Shown here: positions 32,812-64,000 of the stretch, piece by piece | Layout: each line of letters starts with the position of its first letter | Position numbering within the stretch: the first letter of the stretch is position 1 | Origin: Emergencia timonensis | GTDB taxonomy: Bacteria; Bacillota; Clostridia; Peptostreptococcales; Anaerovoracaceae | Assembly (NCBI RefSeq): GCF_900086585.1 | Contig: NZ_FLKM01000009.1 | Location: 186,001-250,000, forward strand | Direction of reading: 5' to 3' | DNA length: 64,000 nucleotides | Made by a program: the position numbers and the translations under genes | The notes under the pieces: generated by a model | Told to the model about the DNA's origin: nothing | The model's database searches: none | The model's input: only the letters and a program-made list of their open reading frames with translations

Positions 32812-33343
32812 CTTTGTGTGGCAAAAACAGGATTGTTCCTTGACAACCGAATAGTCATTCGCCAAATACTTCCTCTTTGTGATTGTGATGAGCATAAGCG
32901 TGCGGAGCAGTACGCCAAGACCTGCCGACAAGCAAATAGCGATGAAAGGTGGTGAGCGAGCCTATACTGACTCCAAATATCGGGTAGCCCCCGGTTTCGC
33001 CATAACCCACAAAGAGCATAATGGTACTCCCGTCCAGTCACAGTCCGAGCGGTATCCAATCCGCCGCAGGCAATGAGGGCGGCTCTGGCAGACCGTCAGT
33101 TGGGGTGAAACTCCCGTGGAGTCAGTTCGCTGCTGACCGTTTGGCGACTTCCCTGCGCTTTTTCGTATTTGCATTTCGGGGTGTCGAGGACAAATAGAAA
33201 TGCCATGATCATAAAGCCAGACACAAGGTTATCAATGAGAACAGAGCTTTGTTTTATATGCTCCAGACCTCAAAAAGCCTTTTGCCTGGCTTATTACATA
33301 GACAGAATTATTATTTGTCGAATATAGATTGGAGGTTATAAAG
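32812..33343. other. Unassigned 530-bp gap before the toxin gene
   Basis: No frame with a plausible start and recognisable protein was found on the plus strand. On the minus strand two short frames (about 33174-32962 and 32931-32740) together have protein-like composition but no recognised family and no clear ribosome site. The DNA around 32930-33130 is more GC-rich than its surroundings, so an RNA or a decayed gene is possible. Confidence 0.45.
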
Positions 33344-45375: not shown

Positions 45376-46371
45376 TTAACTGACGTACAAAATCTTCACA
45401 TCGCCTAAAATCCGTTTGATTTCTGAACGCAGAAATTCTTCTGCCTTTTTTCTTTCTTCCGGCTTATAGCAATATTTACCTCTGCCGCGTCCTGTCATCA
45501 GCTCTTTGTCATATAGATCCGGTGCGTTGGGAAAAGCGTCGCCGTTGATGGCGCGATGGATATAGGAATAGGTCATCAAGATGATCTCCAAAAACATTTC
45601 CTTTTTCACCTTTTCTGATAAACCGTCCCGCAGCTGCTCTAAAAGTTCTGTGTACAGTTCTTTCCAGCCATCTACCAACATGACCGGCGCAATTAAAAGT
45701 CCGCAGGGGTAACCAGCTTCGCACATTTTGTTTACGGCTTCTATTCGCTTTTGTAAATCAGATGTGCCCAGTTCAATACGATTGATGAGAGGCTGGGGAT
45801 TGACACTCATGCGAAAAATAACCTTCCCTTTGTGAGGCAGATCGAGAAGGCTGTCCACCATGTGAAATTTTGTTGGAAAGGTCAAACTGCCAACACCTTC
45901 CTCAGCAAAGCGAGGTATGGTGTAGAGGAGATTGCTCGTTATGGTATTTTCAAGAACCAGGTCACTGTTGCTGCCGATTTCAAAAGTCAAGGGTTTTTCA
46001 CTGCCGCGGCTTTTCTTGATTAAACGGTCCAGCATCTGTTCTCTGTTGACAAACAGGCGCAGATAAGCACACTTGTTATAGTTGCATACCAGATAACAAT
46101 ACAGGCACATGGCGGTACAGCCAGACGAGGTGTAGGGGACTAAATAGTCTGACACCTTTTGATTCTCCACATATTTGTGAGTTTTTCTAGTGCCTATAAT
46201 TAAATTTCGCTTCATTTTTCCAAACTCGGCGTTTTCTTTTTCACGCATTTCTTTTATGGAATTGTGACTATCGATCGGTATCCACGGCAAATCGGTAAAT
46301 TGATCTTTTAATTGTTTACCCAATTCATAGGAAAGACTATTCGGCTCATAATATACTGCATCAAATTTCAT
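45376..46371 (-). CDS. splB: Spore photoproduct lyase (radical SAM)
   Basis: 331 residues. The iron-sulfur motif CxxxCxxC is SSGCTAMCLYCYLVC (about residues 84-98), in the position and context of SplB enzymes, preceded by GTRKTHKYVENQKVSDYLVP. The later motif RMSVNPQPLINRIELGTSDL is also typical. The enzyme reverses the thymine dimer-like photoproduct formed in spore DNA by UV light, using S-adenosylmethionine. This gene is good evidence that the host makes spores. The length is close to the Bacillus enzyme. Confidence 0.87.
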   Translation of the reverse strand: MKFDAVYYEPNSLSYELGKQLKDQFTDLPWIPIDSHNSIKEMREKENAEFGKMKRNLIIGTRKTHKYVENQKVSDYLVPYTSSGCTAMCLYCYLVCNYNKCAYLRLFVNREQMLDRLIKKSRGSEKPLTFEIGSNSDLVLENTITSNLLYTIPRFAEEGVGSLTFPTKFHMVDSLLDLPHKGKVIFRMSVNPQPLINRIELGTSDLQKRIEAVNKMCEAGYPCGLLIAPVMLVDGWKELYTELLEQLRDGLSEKVKKEMFLEIILMTYSYIHRAINGDAFPNAPDLYDKELMTGRGRGKYCYKPEERKKAEEFLRSEIKRILGDVKILYVS

Positions 46372-46868: not shown

Positions 46869-48179
<1,311 letters not shown>

Positions 48180-56493: not shown

Positions 56494-56520
56494 ACACTAT
56501 GATGGGACCTTCATATGATA
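56494..56520 (+). promoter_or_regulatory. Sigma-K-like promoter of the glycosyltransferase gene
   Basis: AC (56494-56495), 16-base gap, CATATGATA (56512-56520), matching the sigma-K pattern AC-N16/17-CATAnnnTA. It is 58 bases before the start codon. Confidence 0.65.
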
Positions 56521-56569
56521 TCAAGATAGCCTTTATATAAGCCTATACAGCATATGAAGGAGGATATGA

Positions 56570-57649
56570 ATGATAACAATCAGCTTATGCATGATACTCA
56601 AAGATGAAGAGGACGTTTTGGATCGCTGTCTTTCCAGCGTCAAAGGATTGGTAGATGAAATAATCATCGTAGATACAGGCTCAACAGATGCGACAAAGCA
56701 GATTGCTTTACAATATACAGACCAGGTTTTTGATTTTGCCTGGATTGACGACTTTGCCGCTGCTAGAAATTATGCTTTTTCTAAAGCAAATAAGGAATAT
56801 TGTATGTGGCTGGATGCGGACGATGTGATAGAAGAGAAGGATCGATTGGATTTCTTAACTCTCAAAAATACACTTACCTTGGACACAGATATTGTTATGA
56901 TGCGTTATAATACTGCCTTTGATGACGACGGAAATCCATCGTTCTGGTACTATCGGGAGAGAATTATCCGCAATGATCAAAGCCATCCATGGCAGGGAGC
57001 TGTCCATGAAGTCATTACACCGAATGGCAATCTCCTATATTCTGATGTTGCGATTTGCCACAGGAAACTTGGTGCAGGTGATCCCGACCGCAATCTCAAT
57101 ATTTATAGAAAACTGCTGGCAGAAGGCAGAATTCTTTCTGCGCGCGAACAGTATTACTATTCTCGCGAGTTGTACTATCACCAGTTGTATGACGATGCGA
57201 TTGAAGCCTTTGGCGTTTTTTTGTCACTGCCTGACGGATGGATGGAGGATAAAATCGAGGCCTGCATCATGTCGTCAAAGTGTTATATGCTGACTGGCAA
57301 AAGTGACGAAGCGCTGCTGATGCTTTTTCGAAGTTTGCTCTACGATATTCCCAGGGCGGAAGTCTGCTGTGAAATTGGAGACTGCTTTATGAAAACAGGG
57401 CGGTTTGAAACGGCAGCCTTTTGGTTTGAAACGGCGCTGGACTGCCAGATGGATTATCGCAAGGGCGGATTTATCCTGCCTGACTGTTACGACTACATTC
57501 CGGCGATTCAGCTCTGTGTCTGTTATGATAAACTGGGTGAAGTAGAAAAGGCAAAAGCGTATAATGACAAAGCTGGCGAGTACAAACCAAATGCATCGGC
57601 ATTTTTGCACAACAAAAAATATTTTGATAAAAAATTAAAATCTCATTGA
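56570..57649 (+). CDS. GT2 glycosyltransferase with TPR-like C-terminus
   Basis: 359 residues, ribosome site AAGGAGGA. N-terminal GT2 domain (about 1-210): ISLCMILKDEEDVLDRCLSS, EIIIVDTGSTDATK and the metal-binding DADD in WLDADDVIEEKD (about 83-86). The C-terminal third (about 215-350) is built of helical pairs resembling TPR repeats (ALLMLFRSLLYDIPRAEVCC; AAFWFETALDCQ). This SunS-like layout is typical of peptide/protein glycosyltransferases. The next gene is a Thr-rich collagen protein, so O-glycosylation of its threonines is the likely role. Confidence 0.85.
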   Translation: MITISLCMILKDEEDVLDRCLSSVKGLVDEIIIVDTGSTDATKQIALQYTDQVFDFAWIDDFAAARNYAFSKANKEYCMWLDADDVIEEKDRLDFLTLKNTLTLDTDIVMMRYNTAFDDDGNPSFWYYRERIIRNDQSHPWQGAVHEVITPNGNLLYSDVAICHRKLGAGDPDRNLNIYRKLLAEGRILSAREQYYYSRELYYHQLYDDAIEAFGVFLSLPDGWMEDKIEACIMSSKCYMLTGKSDEALLMLFRSLLYDIPRAEVCCEIGDCFMKTGRFETAAFWFETALDCQMDYRKGGFILPDCYDYIPAIQLCVCYDKLGEVEKAKAYNDKAGEYKPNASAFLHNKKYFDKKLKSH

Positions 57650-57657
57650 TTTCATGG

Positions 57658-57685
57658 ACCCCCTTTCGCGTAATGTCATATTATA
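57658..57685 (+). promoter_or_regulatory. Sigma-K-like promoter of the large collagen gene
   Basis: AC (57658-57659), 17-base gap, CATATTATA (57677-57685): a full match to AC-N16/17-CATAnnnTA. Start codon 49 bases after the -10. Confidence 0.7.
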
Positions 57686-57725
57686 AAAGTGCGGCATAGC
57701 CGCGAATTGAAAGGGATGTGAATAT

Positions 57726-59765
57726 ATGAATTATAATATAAATGGAAGATGTCGATATATGGATTATGGCATGTGCTATCCAGTATACCACTGTACAGGG
57801 ACTCCAGGCCCAACCGGCCCAACCGGCCCAACCGGTCCAACCGGTCCGACGGGTCCAACTGGACCAACGGGTCCGACTGGTACTGCAGGCATAGCCGGCG
57901 CAACGGGAGCGACTGGCGCAGCAGGTCAAGATGGAACAACACCTATAATTAAGGTTGTCGGGACTATTACAGGCGACCCTGGAACAGATGCCAATGTAGA
58001 TGAAACTCTTTCGCGTGATGGCGTAGATCTGATATTTACAATTCCAGCTGGCCCAACGGGAGCTAGTGGATCACCAGGAGTAACTGGTGCAGATGGAAGA
58101 GACGGAGTTGATGGTGTAACCGGAGCAACTGGCGCAGACGGAAGAGACGGAAGAGATGGCGCTACCGGAGCAACTGGCGCACCGGGAGAAGACGGCGTAG
58201 ATGGAATAGATGGCCCAACTGGTCCGACGGGTCCAACAGGAGCCACTGGTCCGACTGGCCCAACAGGCCCGACAGGAAACACTGGTGTAGGTGTAACGGG
58301 TCCAACTGGGGCAACAGGCCCGACCGGCCCTGGATCTGGCGCTACAGGAGCAACAGGCCCGACGGGTCCGACAGGAGCAACGGGAAACACTGGAGCAGAC
58401 GGAGCAACCGGTCCGACAGGAGCAACGGGAAATACTGGTCCAGATGGAGCAGATGGCCCGACCGGCCCGACAGGAGCAACAGGAAACACTGGAGCAGACG
58501 GTGTGGCGGGAGCCACGGGAGCAACAGGAAACACCGGAGCAGATGGAGCAACAGGCCCAACGGGAGCAACAGGAAATACCGGAGCAGACGGAGCAGATGG
58601 CCCGACCGGTCCGACAGGAGCAACCGGAAACACAGGAGCAGCCGGAGCCACTGGTCCAGCGGGAGCAACGGGCCCAACCGGAGCAGATGGAGCAACAGGC
58701 CCAACGGGAGCAACAGGAAATACCGGAGCAGACGGAGCAGATGGCCCGACGGGTCCGACAGGAGCAACGGGAAGCACTGGAGCAGACGGAGCAACAGGCC
58801 CAACGGGAGCAACAGGAAATACCGGAGCAGACGGAGCCATTGGTCCAGCGGGAACAACAGGCCCAACGGGTCCGACAGGAGCAGCCGGTACAGCAGGAGT
58901 GACTGGCCCAACGGGTCCAACAGGAGCAGCCGGTACAGCAGGCGCGACCGGTCCAACAGGAGCAGCAGGAGTAACAGGCCCAACGGGTCCGACAGGAGCA
59001 GCAGGTACAGCAGGAGTGACTGGTCCAACCGGTCCAACAGGAGCAGCGGGAGCAACAGGCCCAACGGGTCCGACAGGAGCAGCAGGTACAGCAGGCGCGA
59101 CGGGTCCAACTGGAGCAGCAGGAGCAACGGGAGCGAATGGAGCAACCGGTCCAACCGGTCCAACAGGAGCGGCAGGTACAGCAGGAGCAACGGGAGCGAC
59201 GGGTCCAACAGGCGCAGCAGGGGCAACTGGAGCAAATGGAGCGACTGGTCCAACGGGAGCAACAGGAGCAACAGGTCCAACGGGTGCAACGGGAGCAACA
59301 GGTCCAACGGGAGCAGCAGGTACAGCAGGAGCAACGGGAGCGACCGGTCCAACCGGAACTACTGCGACAGTCAATAGTATGAATGCACTCAATACCAATG
59401 GAGCTACCATTGCTGTTCTTTTAGGAGGAACGACTGTTCCTCTTCCAAATGATCAGGTTTTAGACGGCTTCACAGTAGATGCTGGGAATACCACCTTTAC
59501 TGTACCAGCTACGGGAACCTATATGGTGACCTATCGTGTATCGACTACTGCAGGGCTATTAATGTCGTCTCGTGTTATGCGTAACGGTACTGCATTGGCC
59601 GGATCCACTTTCTCACCGGCCGTATCGGTCAGCTCGTATTCGGCAACAACCTTTGCAACCTTGACTGCAGGAGATACTCTTCAACTTCAGCTCTTTGGCC
59701 TGGCAGGAGCAGCAGTTCTTCAGGGCGGCAACGGCGCATCACTGACCGTGGTTAGACTTTCCTAA
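57726..59765 (+). CDS. BclA-like collagen protein, long, with C1q/TNF-like end
   Basis: 679 residues, ribosome site AAAGGGATG. Short head ([20 protein letters not shown]), then a long Gly-x-y region (about 25-545) of [12 protein letters not shown] and GAAGTA types. It is broken once at about 70-110 by a non-collagen stretch ([20 protein letters not shown]). The C-terminal ~130 residues ([20 protein letters not shown]...[13 protein letters not shown]) form the beta-rich BclA-type trimerising domain. No signal peptide. Probably an exosporium filament protein, decorated by the preceding glycosyltransferase. Confidence 0.88.
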
Positions 59766-60500: not shown

Positions 60501-60529
60501 ACCGTTATCCCTCTGCCTTGCATATATTA
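60501..60529 (+). promoter_or_regulatory. Sigma-K-like promoter of the thioester-protein gene
   Basis: CATATATTA (60521-60529) matches CATAnnnTA; AC at 60501-60502 is 18 bases upstream, one more than usual. Start codon 55 bases after the -10. Confidence 0.55.
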
Positions 60530-60575
60530 ATCATGGAGAACTTTCTTCTAAATTCATATATAGGGAGGAATTACT

Positions 60576-62315
60576 GTGCTTGAAACAAAAGCTTCAAATA
60601 TATCAAGGCCGTTTATCATCTATTCCGGCAATGATATCAGCGGAACCGTAGGTGGTAATCCCAGCGTAGAAAGTTACTGCGCCTTGGATTATACCGCAGC
60701 GTCAAGATATCGTTTAAAAAGAGATGACCACAATCAGATATTTCAATTCTTTGGAAACCTTTTAGGCAGTCAAAATAAATTAGTATACTGTCTGGACAAA
60801 TTTGCCGATGGACCATACAATGATGTTCCATATGAAAGCAGACCATTTGAAACCCTCTTTCCTGGAGCCACTGAACGTCAGAAGGAAATGTTTGGCTGGA
60901 TTATGGCTAACGCTTTCCCTTCTGTCAGTGCTAATGATACCTTTGCTCTGGCAGGAGTAGATCCGACGGCAAGTCCTGTACTGGATGACAATGATGCTTA
61001 TGCAGCGGTACAAATCGCGCTTTGGGTATTGCTGGGACAGATTTCTTTAGATGAAGTATATTTCCTCGATTGTACGACGGGAGATCCTCATCCCAAATCT
61101 GATAGAATGAGAGCAACTGTACTTGCGCTTCTCGATCTTGCAGGTCAGTACGTAGACGCAGAATCGAATCCACCAGAAGGATTGACCGCTTCTATCGCAA
61201 GCTGCTGTGGCGGCAGTACTTTTTTAAACTGCTGTAATCAGAGTACTTTACCGACAGATGGAAGCGAGTCATATTTTGTCTTCCAGGGATGTCCCAACGA
61301 AGTCCGCACAATATGCGGAAGACTATTAATCGGCCCTTTCCGTATTCAATCTAGTTTTGCAGGCCAGCCGCAAATTACACTGACCCCGTTCTGTGATTGT
61401 GATGGAGCCTATTCTTGGTCTTACATGGACTTCTGTGGAAACCCAATAGGAGATCCTGCTATTGGGCAGGAATTCTATATCGCTCTGCGAATTCCAGGAA
61501 AGTTTGCATGTTTTACTCTTTCCGCATCGTTTTCAGGGACGATTACTCGGGTTATCGGGTTGGAGGCACAGAGTACGGCATTGAATTATCAGCCAATTGG
61601 TACGGCTTTTGATGATGAACCGATTACTCTGACTGCCAGTCTTTGCATCTGTGTCGAGTATCCTGCGTGCACGAATGTAGAAGTCGAAGGCGGACAGTTT
61701 GGCATCAGTATCAACAATAATAACAATAATAATAACGACAATAATAACAACAATAACAATAACAATAACAACGACTCGCCTGACTATATGGGTGGAGGTT
61801 TAGCTCCATGCCCGTGTATGGGACCTTGTTGTCCGCCATACCCGCCGGAACCACCATATCCACCGTATCCGCCATACCCGCCGGAACCACCATACCCGCC
61901 GGAACCACCATATCCGCCGGAACCACCATATCCGCCATATCCACCATGTCCGCCGGAACCACCGTATCCGCCATATCCACCGTATCCGCCATATCCACCA
62001 TGTCCGCCGGAACCACCGTATCCGCCGGAGCCACCATGTCCGCCGGAACCACCATATCCGCCATATCCACCGTGTCCGCCGGAACCGCCATATCCACCGT
62101 GTCCGCCGGAACCGCCATATCCACCGTGTCCACCGGAACCGCCATGTAGACCAAAACCATGCGATGTTTGTTGCAAGCCGGAACCGCCATGTAGACCAAA
62201 ACCATGTGATATTTGTTGCAAGCCGGAGCCGCCATGCAAGCCGGAGCCGCCATGCAAGCAGAAGCCGCTGCCATGCCGCTGTGCACCGGAACCGCCTAAA
62301 ATAAGGCTGATATAA
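60576..62315 (+). CDS. Thioester-domain protein with Asn-rich and Pro-rich stalk, probable spore surface
   Basis: 579 residues from GTG 60576 behind GGGAGGAA. The N-terminal ~200 residues form a thioester (TQXA-like) domain: Cys72 in LVYCLDKF and Gln146 in AYAAVQIALW are the expected internal thioester pair, which bonds covalently to host amines in Gram-positive adhesins. A Cys-containing beta-rich middle follows (about 200-375), then an Asn/Asp tract (about 383-405), a PPYPPYPPxPPEPP stalk (about 415-530) and a Cys-rich tail (CDVCCKPEPPC repeats). There is no signal peptide or LPxTG motif, unlike known thioester adhesins. Confidence 0.8.
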   Translation: MLETKASNISRPFIIYSGNDISGTVGGNPSVESYCALDYTAASRYRLKRDDHNQIFQFFGNLLGSQNKLVYCLDKFADGPYNDVPYESRPFETLFPGATERQKEMFGWIMANAFPSVSANDTFALAGVDPTASPVLDDNDAYAAVQIALWVLLGQISLDEVYFLDCTTGDPHPKSDRMRATVLALLDLAGQYVDAESNPPEGLTASIASCCGGSTFLNCCNQSTLPTDGSESYFVFQGCPNEVRTICGRLLIGPFRIQSSFAGQPQITLTPFCDCDGAYSWSYMDFCGNPIGDPAIGQEFYIALRIPGKFACFTLSASFSGTITRVIGLEAQSTALNYQPIGTAFDDEPITLTASLCICVEYPACTNVEVEGGQFGISINNNNNNNNDNNNNNNNNNNNDSPDYMGGGLAPCPCMGPCCPPYPPEPPYPPYPPYPPEPPYPPEPPYPPEPPYPPYPPCPPEPPYPPYPPYPPYPPCPPEPPYPPEPPCPPEPPYPPYPPCPPEPPYPPCPPEPPYPPCPPEPPCRPKPCDVCCKPEPPCRPKPCDICCKPEPPCKPEPPCKQKPLPCRCAPEPPKIRLI

Positions 62316-62386: not shown

Positions 62387-62562
62387 TATAACGCACGATA
62401 AAATTGCGGAACTATCTATGATTCAATAGTTTTAACAGAACGATTGAAAGGGTTGGTTATCTGACTATTTTACTTGTGGAAATATTATACATATGATAAA
62501 ATAAAAGGTAGAATAAACGCAGCAGCTACCGTACCCTTTGCTGCGAGCGGATTGGCAGGTGT

Positions 62563-64000
62563 GTGAAGTTGGAATGGAATATTGCTGCGGAATCTATTTC
62601 TTTAGTAATGCTGGGGATTATCTGGGTCTATGCCCGCAAGGGCAGCCGTCTTCCATCTTTAAAGAATAGAATATTTCAATGGTGTGTAATGGTGACTTTT
62701 AGTGCAATTTTCACTAATATTTTGTCTACCATCATGATTTATAACTATGCTCAGATTCCCATGTGGATGACCTGGACTGTTACGATGGTCTACTTTGTAT
62801 TAACGCCTCTTATGGGGCTGGCATATTTTCTCTATACGCTTTCTGTTATCTATGCGGACAGCGGCCAAATCAAGAAGCTTGCTGCTGTTGGAGTTATCCC
62901 TGGAGCGATTTATATTTTGATGATTTTGAGTAATCCCTTCAGCCAATGGATTTTTGGCCTCAACATGAGTGATGGTTACACCAGAGGTCCTTTCATATCT
63001 GTTACATATCTCATATTTTATGCTTACTGCCTCGCTAGTATTGTTGTTACACTGGTCAACCATAAACGGATCGACCGAGAGATTTATAGAATTTTGGCAG
63101 CGTTTCCAGTTCTCGCTGTAGCCGTTATTATCGTGCAGCAGGCTTATCCCAACGTGATTCTTTCTGGTTCAGCGGCAACCTGTGCGCTGTTGATTATCTA
63201 TCTGCACTTGCAGAATAGACAAATTTCTATGGATTATTTGACTAATGTGCCCAATCGTCAGGAACTATTGGACATGTTGGGCTTGATGTTGAAAAAAGTG
63301 CCAAAAAAGAAGTTTGTTTTAGCAGTCGCATCGCTCCGTGACTTTAGACAGATCAATAATGCATGTGGGCAGCAAAAAGGAGACGAACTTTTAAAAATAA
63401 TATGCCAGTTCCTAAAGAAAATCGGCCGCCGAGAAAATGTGTATCGCTTTAGCGGCGATGAATTTGCACTGCTCTTTACCCATGAGGACGAGGCCCAGAT
63501 CAGGCAATGCATGAATGATATACAAGCACGCATGGAACAACCGTGGCAAGTTGATGAATATCACTTCATGTTGAACATGGTCATAGGCGTTGTTCAGTAT
63601 TCTGGTGAAGGGGAGTCACTTGAGCGCTTGGTTAACTCCATCGAATATGCCGTCTCACAGGCGAAATCAGGGAAATATGGCCAGATCTGTTACTGTGACA
63701 AAGAGATGCTGGAGAAGCTGGAGCGCAGACGCAAGGTCATTCAAGTTTTAAAAGAAAAGTTGGACGATGAGAGTTTTCAAATGTATTACCAGCCGATTTA
63801 TTCAGTTAAAAGTGGACGCTTTTTTTATGCGGAGTCTTTGATGAGAATTCCAGATTCGCCGATCGGCCCGATTTACCCATCTGAGTTTATCCCTGTTGCC
63901 GAGGAGACCGGGCTGATTGTAAATATAACCTATATCATTTTAGATAAAGTCTGCAAGTTTATCAATCATTTGATGAGCAAAGGCATCTATGTAGGGTCTA
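62563..64000 (+). CDS. Membrane GGDEF-EAL protein (3' end outside window)
   Basis: At least 479 residues, open to the right edge. Start GTG 62563 (MKLEWNIAAESISLVM) is the first in-frame start, with AGGTG close before it. About seven hydrophobic segments fill the first ~220 residues. A GGDEF domain follows (RFSGDEFALLF near residue 300; Ser replaces the first Gly) and then the start of an EAL domain (FQMYYQPIYS; FFYAESLMRI near 425). Such proteins make or break cyclic di-GMP. The SGDEF form may still be active; the EAL motif begins normally with Glu (AESL). A sporulation or adhesion link is possible but unproven. Confidence 0.85.
   Translation, partial: MKLEWNIAAESISLVMLGIIWVYARKGSRLPSLKNRIFQWCVMVTFSAIFTNILSTIMIYNYAQIPMWMTWTVTMVYFVLTPLMGLAYFLYTLSVIYADSGQIKKLAAVGVIPGAIYILMILSNPFSQWIFGLNMSDGYTRGPFISVTYLIFYAYCLASIVVTLVNHKRIDREIYRILAAFPVLAVAVIIVQQAYPNVILSGSAATCALLIIYLHLQNRQISMDYLTNVPNRQELLDMLGLMLKKVPKKKFVLAVASLRDFRQINNACGQQKGDELLKIICQFLKKIGRRENVYRFSGDEFALLFTHEDEAQIRQCMNDIQARMEQPWQVDEYHFMLNMVIGVVQYSGEGESLERLVNSIEYAVSQAKSGKYGQICYCDKEMLEKLERRRKVIQVLKEKLDDESFQMYYQPIYSVKSGRFFYAESLMRIPDSPIGPIYPSEFIPVAEETGLIVNITYIILDKVCKFINHLMSKGIYVGS

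Follow-up and report, generated by a model that had tools for sequence, protein, structure and literature searches.

According to published work (PMC4450167), proteins with thioester domains (TEDs) almost always carry secretion signals and LPXTG anchors. How a TED protein encoded without a leader, close to genes of collagen-like proteins of the exosporium type, may reach a surface, whether its head forms a thioester at all, and with what the bond would eventually react are the questions raised by a gene of Emergencia timonensis (genome of 4,661,482 bases). The gene lies near the end of the window, i.e. the whole stretch of 64,000 nucleotides (G+C 45.3%) that was analysed, and the features of interest are collected in table 1.

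Table 1. Features of the thioester-head gene, of its product and of its surroundings in the window (for the glycosyltransferase, BclA-like and GGDEF/EAL genes, site and gene are given as one interval).
Feature	Position	Strand	Remarks
Spore photoproduct lyase	45376-46371	-	
Second collagen-like gene	47202-48179	+	CATATTATG 52 nt upstream
Family 2 glycosyltransferase with TPR	56512..57649	+	gene 56570-57649; sigma-K-type -10 box at 56512
BclA-like collagen protein	57677..59765	+	gene 57726-59765; sigma-K-type -10 box at 57677
Sigma-K-type promoter of the thioester-head gene	60501..60529	+	AC 60501-60502, 18-nt spacer, CATATATTA 60521-60529
Ribosome-binding site GGGAGG	60563..60568	+	read from sequence
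Thioester-head gene	60576..62315	+	579 aa, GTG start, no signal peptide
Head, residues 1-365, class II-like thioester domain	60576..61670	+	PF08341; Foldseek (6fwy/6fwv) and VIA-align with low-confidence models
Cys72, predicted thioester cysteine	60789..60791	+	in YCLDKFADGPY; invariant, in the longest invariant run
Gln146	61011..61013	+	in VQIALW; Gln of the helix motif, not the thioester Gln
Gln339, predicted thioester glutamine	61590..61592	+	in STALNYQPIG, flanked by the last two strands predicted for the sandwich; putative
Asn tract, residues 380-399	61713..61772	+	same place in L006, L013 and L014
PPx-repeat stalk passing into Cys-rich tail, residues 421-579	61836..62312	+	
GGDEF/EAL protein	62490..64000	+	gene from 62563, running off the window end; sigma-K-type -10 box 62490-62498

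The reading frame itself leaves little room for a missed leader. The putative ribosome-binding site is separated from the GTG start by 7 bases, and the stop-to-stop frame counts 583 codons against the 579 residues of the open reading frame; being open for merely 4 codons 5' of the GTG, it can hide no in-frame leader upstream of the start. Within the protein, the most hydrophobic 12-residue stretch before Cys72 has a mean of 0.70, against 2.19-2.92 by the same measure in the other TED proteins of the genome (L001, L002, L004 and L005), and the N-terminal secretion signal of wall-anchored TIE adhesins was not found in it. No LPXTG motif was seen by eye in the 579-residue translation, and in a Pfam search at E up to 1 no isopeptide domain was found, the TED being the sole match. 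The leaderless gene announced in the preliminary description is thus confirmed, and so is the succession of an Asn tract (runs at 380-387 and 389-399), a proline-rich stalk (35 PPx triads within residues 421-545) and a Cys-rich tail, in a protein in which 38 of the 579 residues (6.6%) are Cys, 15 of them in the head besides Cys72. The head can be subdivided into a helical/barrel lobe (residues ~1-197), a Cys-rich loop (~198-232) and a predicted beta-sandwich (~233-365).

Full-length relatives were found in Diplocloster modestus (L006, 7971-9710; 60% identity in the best segment) and, at ~74% identity, in genome G518 (L013) and in a record of Monoglobus pectinilyticus (NZ_OY725741.1, L014), which L013 closely matches and in which the gene is annotated as 'thioester domain-containing protein'. 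The order of head, Asn tract, PPx stalk and Cys tail, with no leader, is common to them, and eleven Cys within residues 198-365 are invariant across three full-length relatives. Two further genera thus have full-length relatives with this layout, which is therefore more than a chance arrangement. A fourth independent homologue (L008, from G041) consists of the head lobe only: its frame (1447-2534) stops after this lobe, Cys/Pro-rich codons follow in another frame, and a short stretch near the break resembles a transposon end; the short form may reflect decay, an assembly fault or a natural variant. No leader was seen in L006, L008 or L013.

The gene is rare. Including the window's own genome, it occurs in 2 of the 349 genomes of the family and in 2 of the 391 of the class; G518 is the only carrier among 38 genomes of its family, as is the Diplocloster genome among 383 of its order, and a pattern scan of genome contigs returned at least one relative (L006). 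TED proteins as such are common, with a match in 61 of the 391 genomes of the class, from which 29 TED loci were newly read, and further leaderless TEDs may occur among the rest. In 26 other TED frames (L013 set apart), 1-7 Cys each were counted in the stretch of sequence read, the counts being script-read and not checked one by one, with many frames cut by the locus end; only the Cys counts were used, as the TED finder picked the wrong Cys in several frames (e.g. L002, L005, L013 and L025) and none in 7 of 34. With regard to origin, a mobile element was considered and set aside, there being no phage match and the single plasmid record resembling a chromosomal piece. Two patterns searched against viral contigs gave no match. 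The plasmid record, NZ_OY725741.1, is a 285-kb 'plasmid 17' carrying nusA, infB, rbfA, truB and murA, with nusA, infB and truB near the gene, and is probably a piece of the chromosome.

That the head is a thioester domain, as had been proposed, is supported by PF08341 (Pfam), which matches residues 70-178 with E = 1.1e-8 and 35.9 bits against a 22-bit cut-off; the NCBIfam model of the TQXA domain (TIGR03934) scored below its own cut-off (22 against 30.4 bits). YCLD at 71-74 agrees with the [YFL]C-hydrophobic-hydrophilic motif given for the thioester Cys in the accessible part of PMC4450167, and is kept in the relatives (FCLD in L008). Of the Cys72/Gln146 pair put forward in the preliminary description, the Cys is invariant and lies in this motif; the Gln belongs to a helix motif. 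AYAAVQIALW takes the place of the TQxxPhiW motif of TEDs, with Gln and Trp present and with Val instead of Thr in the window protein as well as in three independent relatives, and the 74 residues between Cys72 and Gln146 fall within the 58-81 that separate the Cys from the TQxxPhiW Gln in eight leader-bearing TEDs (taken from the sampled genomes, with two near-identical pairs, and with the thioester Gln assigned by motif). In the portions of the structural reports drawn on here, the Gln of this motif is described as non-essential for the thioester, the bond-forming Gln being located on a late strand (PMC4450167, PMC6194298). Position and distance from the Cys thus rule out Gln146 as the thioester partner.

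Later conserved Gln residues of the head are found at 264, 298 and 339. Of these, Gln339 is the preferred candidate, also over Gln146, because STALNYQPIG (333-342) ranks second in length (10 residues) among the invariant stretches of the aligned heads of the window, Diplocloster and Monoglobus-like proteins (three full-length), YCLDKFADGPY (71-81) being the longest with 11 residues and DHNQIFQFF the third with 9, and because it sits in a loop that joins the last two strands predicted for the sandwich. Among the strands predicted with AlphaFold, one of some length (310-326) is followed by the loop with Gln339, itself of low prediction quality, and by a last strand (345-361), the order that would be expected for the class II hairpin. 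The 267 residues between Cys72 and Gln339 compare with 195-246 in the same eight leader-bearing, class II-like TEDs, a spacing better matched by Gln298 (226) and Gln264 (192), which are also possible partners. A joint MAFFT alignment placed Gln264 in the Gln column and left ~100 residues unaligned, and hhalign, with low probability, aligned no more than the surroundings of the helix motif; neither was relied on for placing the thioester Gln.

The models were obtained with only two sequences as input, headed by the window protein in one case and by the Diplocloster protein in the other, and reached mean pLDDT values of 52.6 and 47.9, the Gln339 loop being among the worst-predicted parts. With each of them, the Foldseek matches below 1e-3 numbered four, and every one was a chain of 6fwy (TIE86 of Enterococcus faecium) or 6fwv (TIE of Bacillus anthracis), both class II TEDs; the TM-scores to these chains were only 0.16-0.30 and, with such TM-scores and pLDDT values, no Cys-Gln distance can be trusted. 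With the first model, the top two VIA-align rows, again 6fwy/6fwv, gave Z 9.7 over 231 residues (rmsd 18.3) and Z 8.1 over 208 residues (rmsd 17.0), rows 3-50 covering only residues 218-370 at Z 8.0 or less. The hallmark of class II, a beta-sandwich between the third helix and the Gln hairpin, may correspond to strands predicted within residues 234-361 of these low-pLDDT models. The modelling supports the order of the structural elements, not their global geometry. No TED came up in sequence searches of the PDB, for which the single protein and two profiles served as queries, and the rows for a globulin and a microseminoprotein (E 0.46-1.5) were taken as chance matches.

Whether the fold could have been kept as a structural head without the thioester, in a Cys-crosslinked component of the coat or of a fibre, is a fair question at this point. 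The TQxxPhiW motif, which in each of the four independent homologues has Val where Thr is expected, the failure of the alignment to fix the thioester Gln and the 15 further Cys of the head, which could pair instead, would all agree with it; the two runs with the predicted thioester residues, YCLDKFADGPY and STALNYQPIG, are nevertheless the two longest invariant ones in the heads of the three relatives, and no residue of the TQxxPhiW motif is fully conserved among TEDs, its Gln and Trp being non-essential, as far as the accessible text of PMC4450167 goes. A head that has lost its chemistry is regarded as unlikely, and thioester formation by the window protein as likely. Twelve TEDs produced in Escherichia coli showed the 17-Da loss, as described in the same available text (PMC4450167), so that secretion by a Gram-positive cell is not needed for the bond to form.

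Where the protein is made is suggested by the upstream region. The -10 box CATATATTA lies 55 nt before the start, with an AC element in front of it, and AC-N16..18-CATANNNTA is present upstream of the gene in all four independent homologues (at -55 in the window, -57 in both L006 and L013, and -90 in L008, with spacers of 18, 16, 16 and 17 nt, the window's being the longest); L014 carries the promoter too, and is too close to L013 to be counted. In mononucleotide shuffles, with spacers of 15-18 nt allowed, AC and the -10 match came together in 0.8-1.9% of cases per region. Among 60 arrangements of the -10 letters, CATANNNTA is the only one accompanied by AC in any upstream region of the four homologues; when the AC condition is dropped, it is present in all four, and of the other 59 arrangements 50 are absent from every region, 8 are found in a single one and one in two. 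Beyond the -10 box and the ribosome-binding region, the upstream sequences agree at few aligned positions. The exact -10 string CATANNNTA and the spacer are presumably sigma-K elements. In Clostridioides difficile the -35 element is AC for sigma-K and ATA for sigma-E, with similar -10 boxes, according to the available part of PMC3789822. The gene has the sigma-K-like promoter of the preliminary description, with AC at -35 and CATANNNTA at -10, and sigma-K would be its regulator.

On the + strand of the window there are four such sites in 64 kb, and they precede four consecutive genes, namely those of the glycosyltransferase, the BclA-like protein (BclA_C domain, E = 1.1e-47), the thioester-head protein and the GGDEF/EAL protein, with 58, 49 and 73 nt from site to start in the first, second and fourth, respectively. 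Three of the four sites fall within upstream zones that make up 6.7% of the + strand (crude calls, 61 ORFs, the GGDEF/EAL gene being left out of this count as it runs off the window), to be compared with a mean of 0.31 sites in the zones out of 7.4 for the other 59 arrangements (best, 2 of 13). On the - strand none of four sites is in such a zone, a weak control given that the zones cover just 2.2% of it. The link of the GGDEF/EAL gene to the thioester system is uncertain; it may encode a mother-cell cyclic-di-GMP enzyme, or its site may be a chance occurrence in AT-rich DNA. The two collagen-like genes of table 1, one with the BclA_C domain and one further upstream, agree with the exosporium-type neighbourhood described earlier. 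The sequence upstream of the more distant one, CATATTATG, narrowly fails to match the sigma-K -10 box. Elsewhere in the window, at 33018-33119, there is a match to the Rfam pemK RNA (43.1 against 34.8 bits).

The hosts are equipped for sporulation. SpoIVA was found over cut-off in all four host genomes and, at E 0.001, in 86 of the 349 genomes of the window's family, a frequency that gives a ~6% chance of its presence in both carriers of that family. Sigma-K was over cut-off in three of the four, the profile search giving no match at cut-off in G518; the sigma-K model also gave matches below cut-off in 11 of the 14 control genomes, which is what other sigma factors would produce. G518 has two partial sigma-K matches on the same strand, ~27 kb apart (G518:C1:699862-700209, model 108-222, and 727421-727771, model 2-115), which may be the parts of a split gene. 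In Bacillus subtilis and C. difficile, sigK is split by the skin element. The window genome has both SpoIVA and sigma-K, and E. timonensis is said to form spores in the abstract of its published report, and not to form them in the formal description of the species (PMC10213047).

A quite different reading would be that of an adhesin of the vegetative cell, exported by a route not yet described, with the spore context a coincidence. The hydrophobic leaders typical of secreted adhesins that are borne by L001, L002, L004 and L005 would be in line with a vegetative role of the family, but the four independent sigma-K-type promoters, the leaderless relatives and the sporulation genes in all four hosts speak so consistently against it that it is considered very improbable. 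Instead, the four promoters, the conserved architecture and the sporulation genes of the hosts together support a link with the spore, and a location on the spore surface is considered quite likely.

In the mechanism that is proposed, the sigma-K RNA polymerase of the mother cell would transcribe the gene late in sporulation, as it would the BclA-like and glycosyltransferase genes. The unsecreted protein would fold in the mother-cell cytosol and be laid on the forespore from outside, deposition from the mother-cell side being suggested by the missing leader. In the head, Cys72 and probably Gln339 are predicted to join spontaneously with loss of ammonia, while the Asn tract and the PPx stalk would hold the head off the surface and the Cys-rich tail would fix the protein in the coat or exosporium, possibly through disulphides that form once the mother cell has lysed; the tail is conserved, and its function as a crosslinking anchor is plausible. 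Finally, an amine, in all probability that of a lysine on something encountered by the spore in the gut, would react with the exposed thioester to form a covalent bond. The core of the proposal, i.e. a sigma-K-made, spore-surface and thioester-forming protein, is favoured on balance; that the target is a host or environmental amine is a tentative suggestion.

The main rival shares this core and the same chemistry, and differs in the last step. According to it, the thioester bonds lysines of coat or exosporium proteins (e.g. the BclA-like one) and welds the layers together, with no outside target. The promoter type, the same as that of the BclA-like and glycosyltransferase genes, would suit such an assembly linker, and spore proteins would surround the thioester at high concentration when it forms in the mother cell. 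The secreted TEDs studied so far act between surfaces, with a lysine of host fibrinogen as the target or in B. subtilis conjugation, in the portions of the reports considered (PMC4450167, PMC8092201), and the length of the stalk suits display towards the outside. The annotation of the Monoglobus copy shows no collagen-like gene in its surroundings (19 features), and the thioester-head gene is found in 2 genomes of the window's family as opposed to 86 with SpoIVA (of 349); being absent from most SpoIVA-bearing relatives, it is not part of core assembly. Crosslinking within the spore surface is judged rather doubtful, somewhat less so than a purely structural head. As for the outward-directed reading, it is possible, albeit far from assured, that spores of some gut bacteria carry internal thioesters, formed in advance in the cytosol of the mother cell and kept throughout dormancy, which would serve as single-use covalent harpoons for amines of the host, mucus or food. 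A class II TED would then have been freed from secretion and sortase anchoring to become the covalent adhesin of a dormant cell, an interpretation put forward with the same reserve. If true, a TED on the spore surface would provide a dormant particle with covalent, energy-free attachment, and could explain the hold of some gut spore formers on mucus, food fibre or each other.

Among known systems, the sigma-K-controlled bclA1-3 genes of C. difficile provide a close parallel for the setting, as they encode collagen-like spore-surface proteins and share a table with CD3350, a family 2 glycosyltransferase, a combination also found beside the window gene; in the available part of that report no TED protein is mentioned (PMC3789822). 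The endospore appendages (S-, L- and F-ENA) are spore-surface fibres as well, with CC motifs in S- and L-ENA and collagen-like tip proteins, as described in the accessible part of PMC11952670. Their subunits have other folds than the window protein, and DUF4183, the F-ENA family, was found in none of the four host genomes. No spore thioester protein is described in the open-access literature among the matches listed (titles and beginnings of abstracts, subscription literature falling largely outside this scope), in agreement with the statement of the preliminary description that no spore thioester adhesin was known to it. L001, L002, L004 and L005, from the same genome, belong to the TED family PF08341 like the window protein, but have hydrophobic leaders and 5-6 Cys in the stretch read, compared with its 38. 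The class II TIE TEDs (BaTIE, 6fwv; EfmTIE86, 6fwy; SaTIE and TIEpLS20) have in common with it the Cys motif, a similarly spaced helix motif (its Gln and Trp) and a predicted beta-rich region after the third helix, and give the best structural matches. The window protein differs from them in having no secretion signal, LPXTG motif or isopeptide domain (Pfam, E up to 1), and in its 11 invariant Cys within 198-365, its Asn/Pro/Cys tail and its sigma-K-type promoter. What is already known is the TED domain itself, the name of which the Monoglobus copy carries in the public record; what is new is the spore setting, the missing leader and the Cys-rich, class II-like head.
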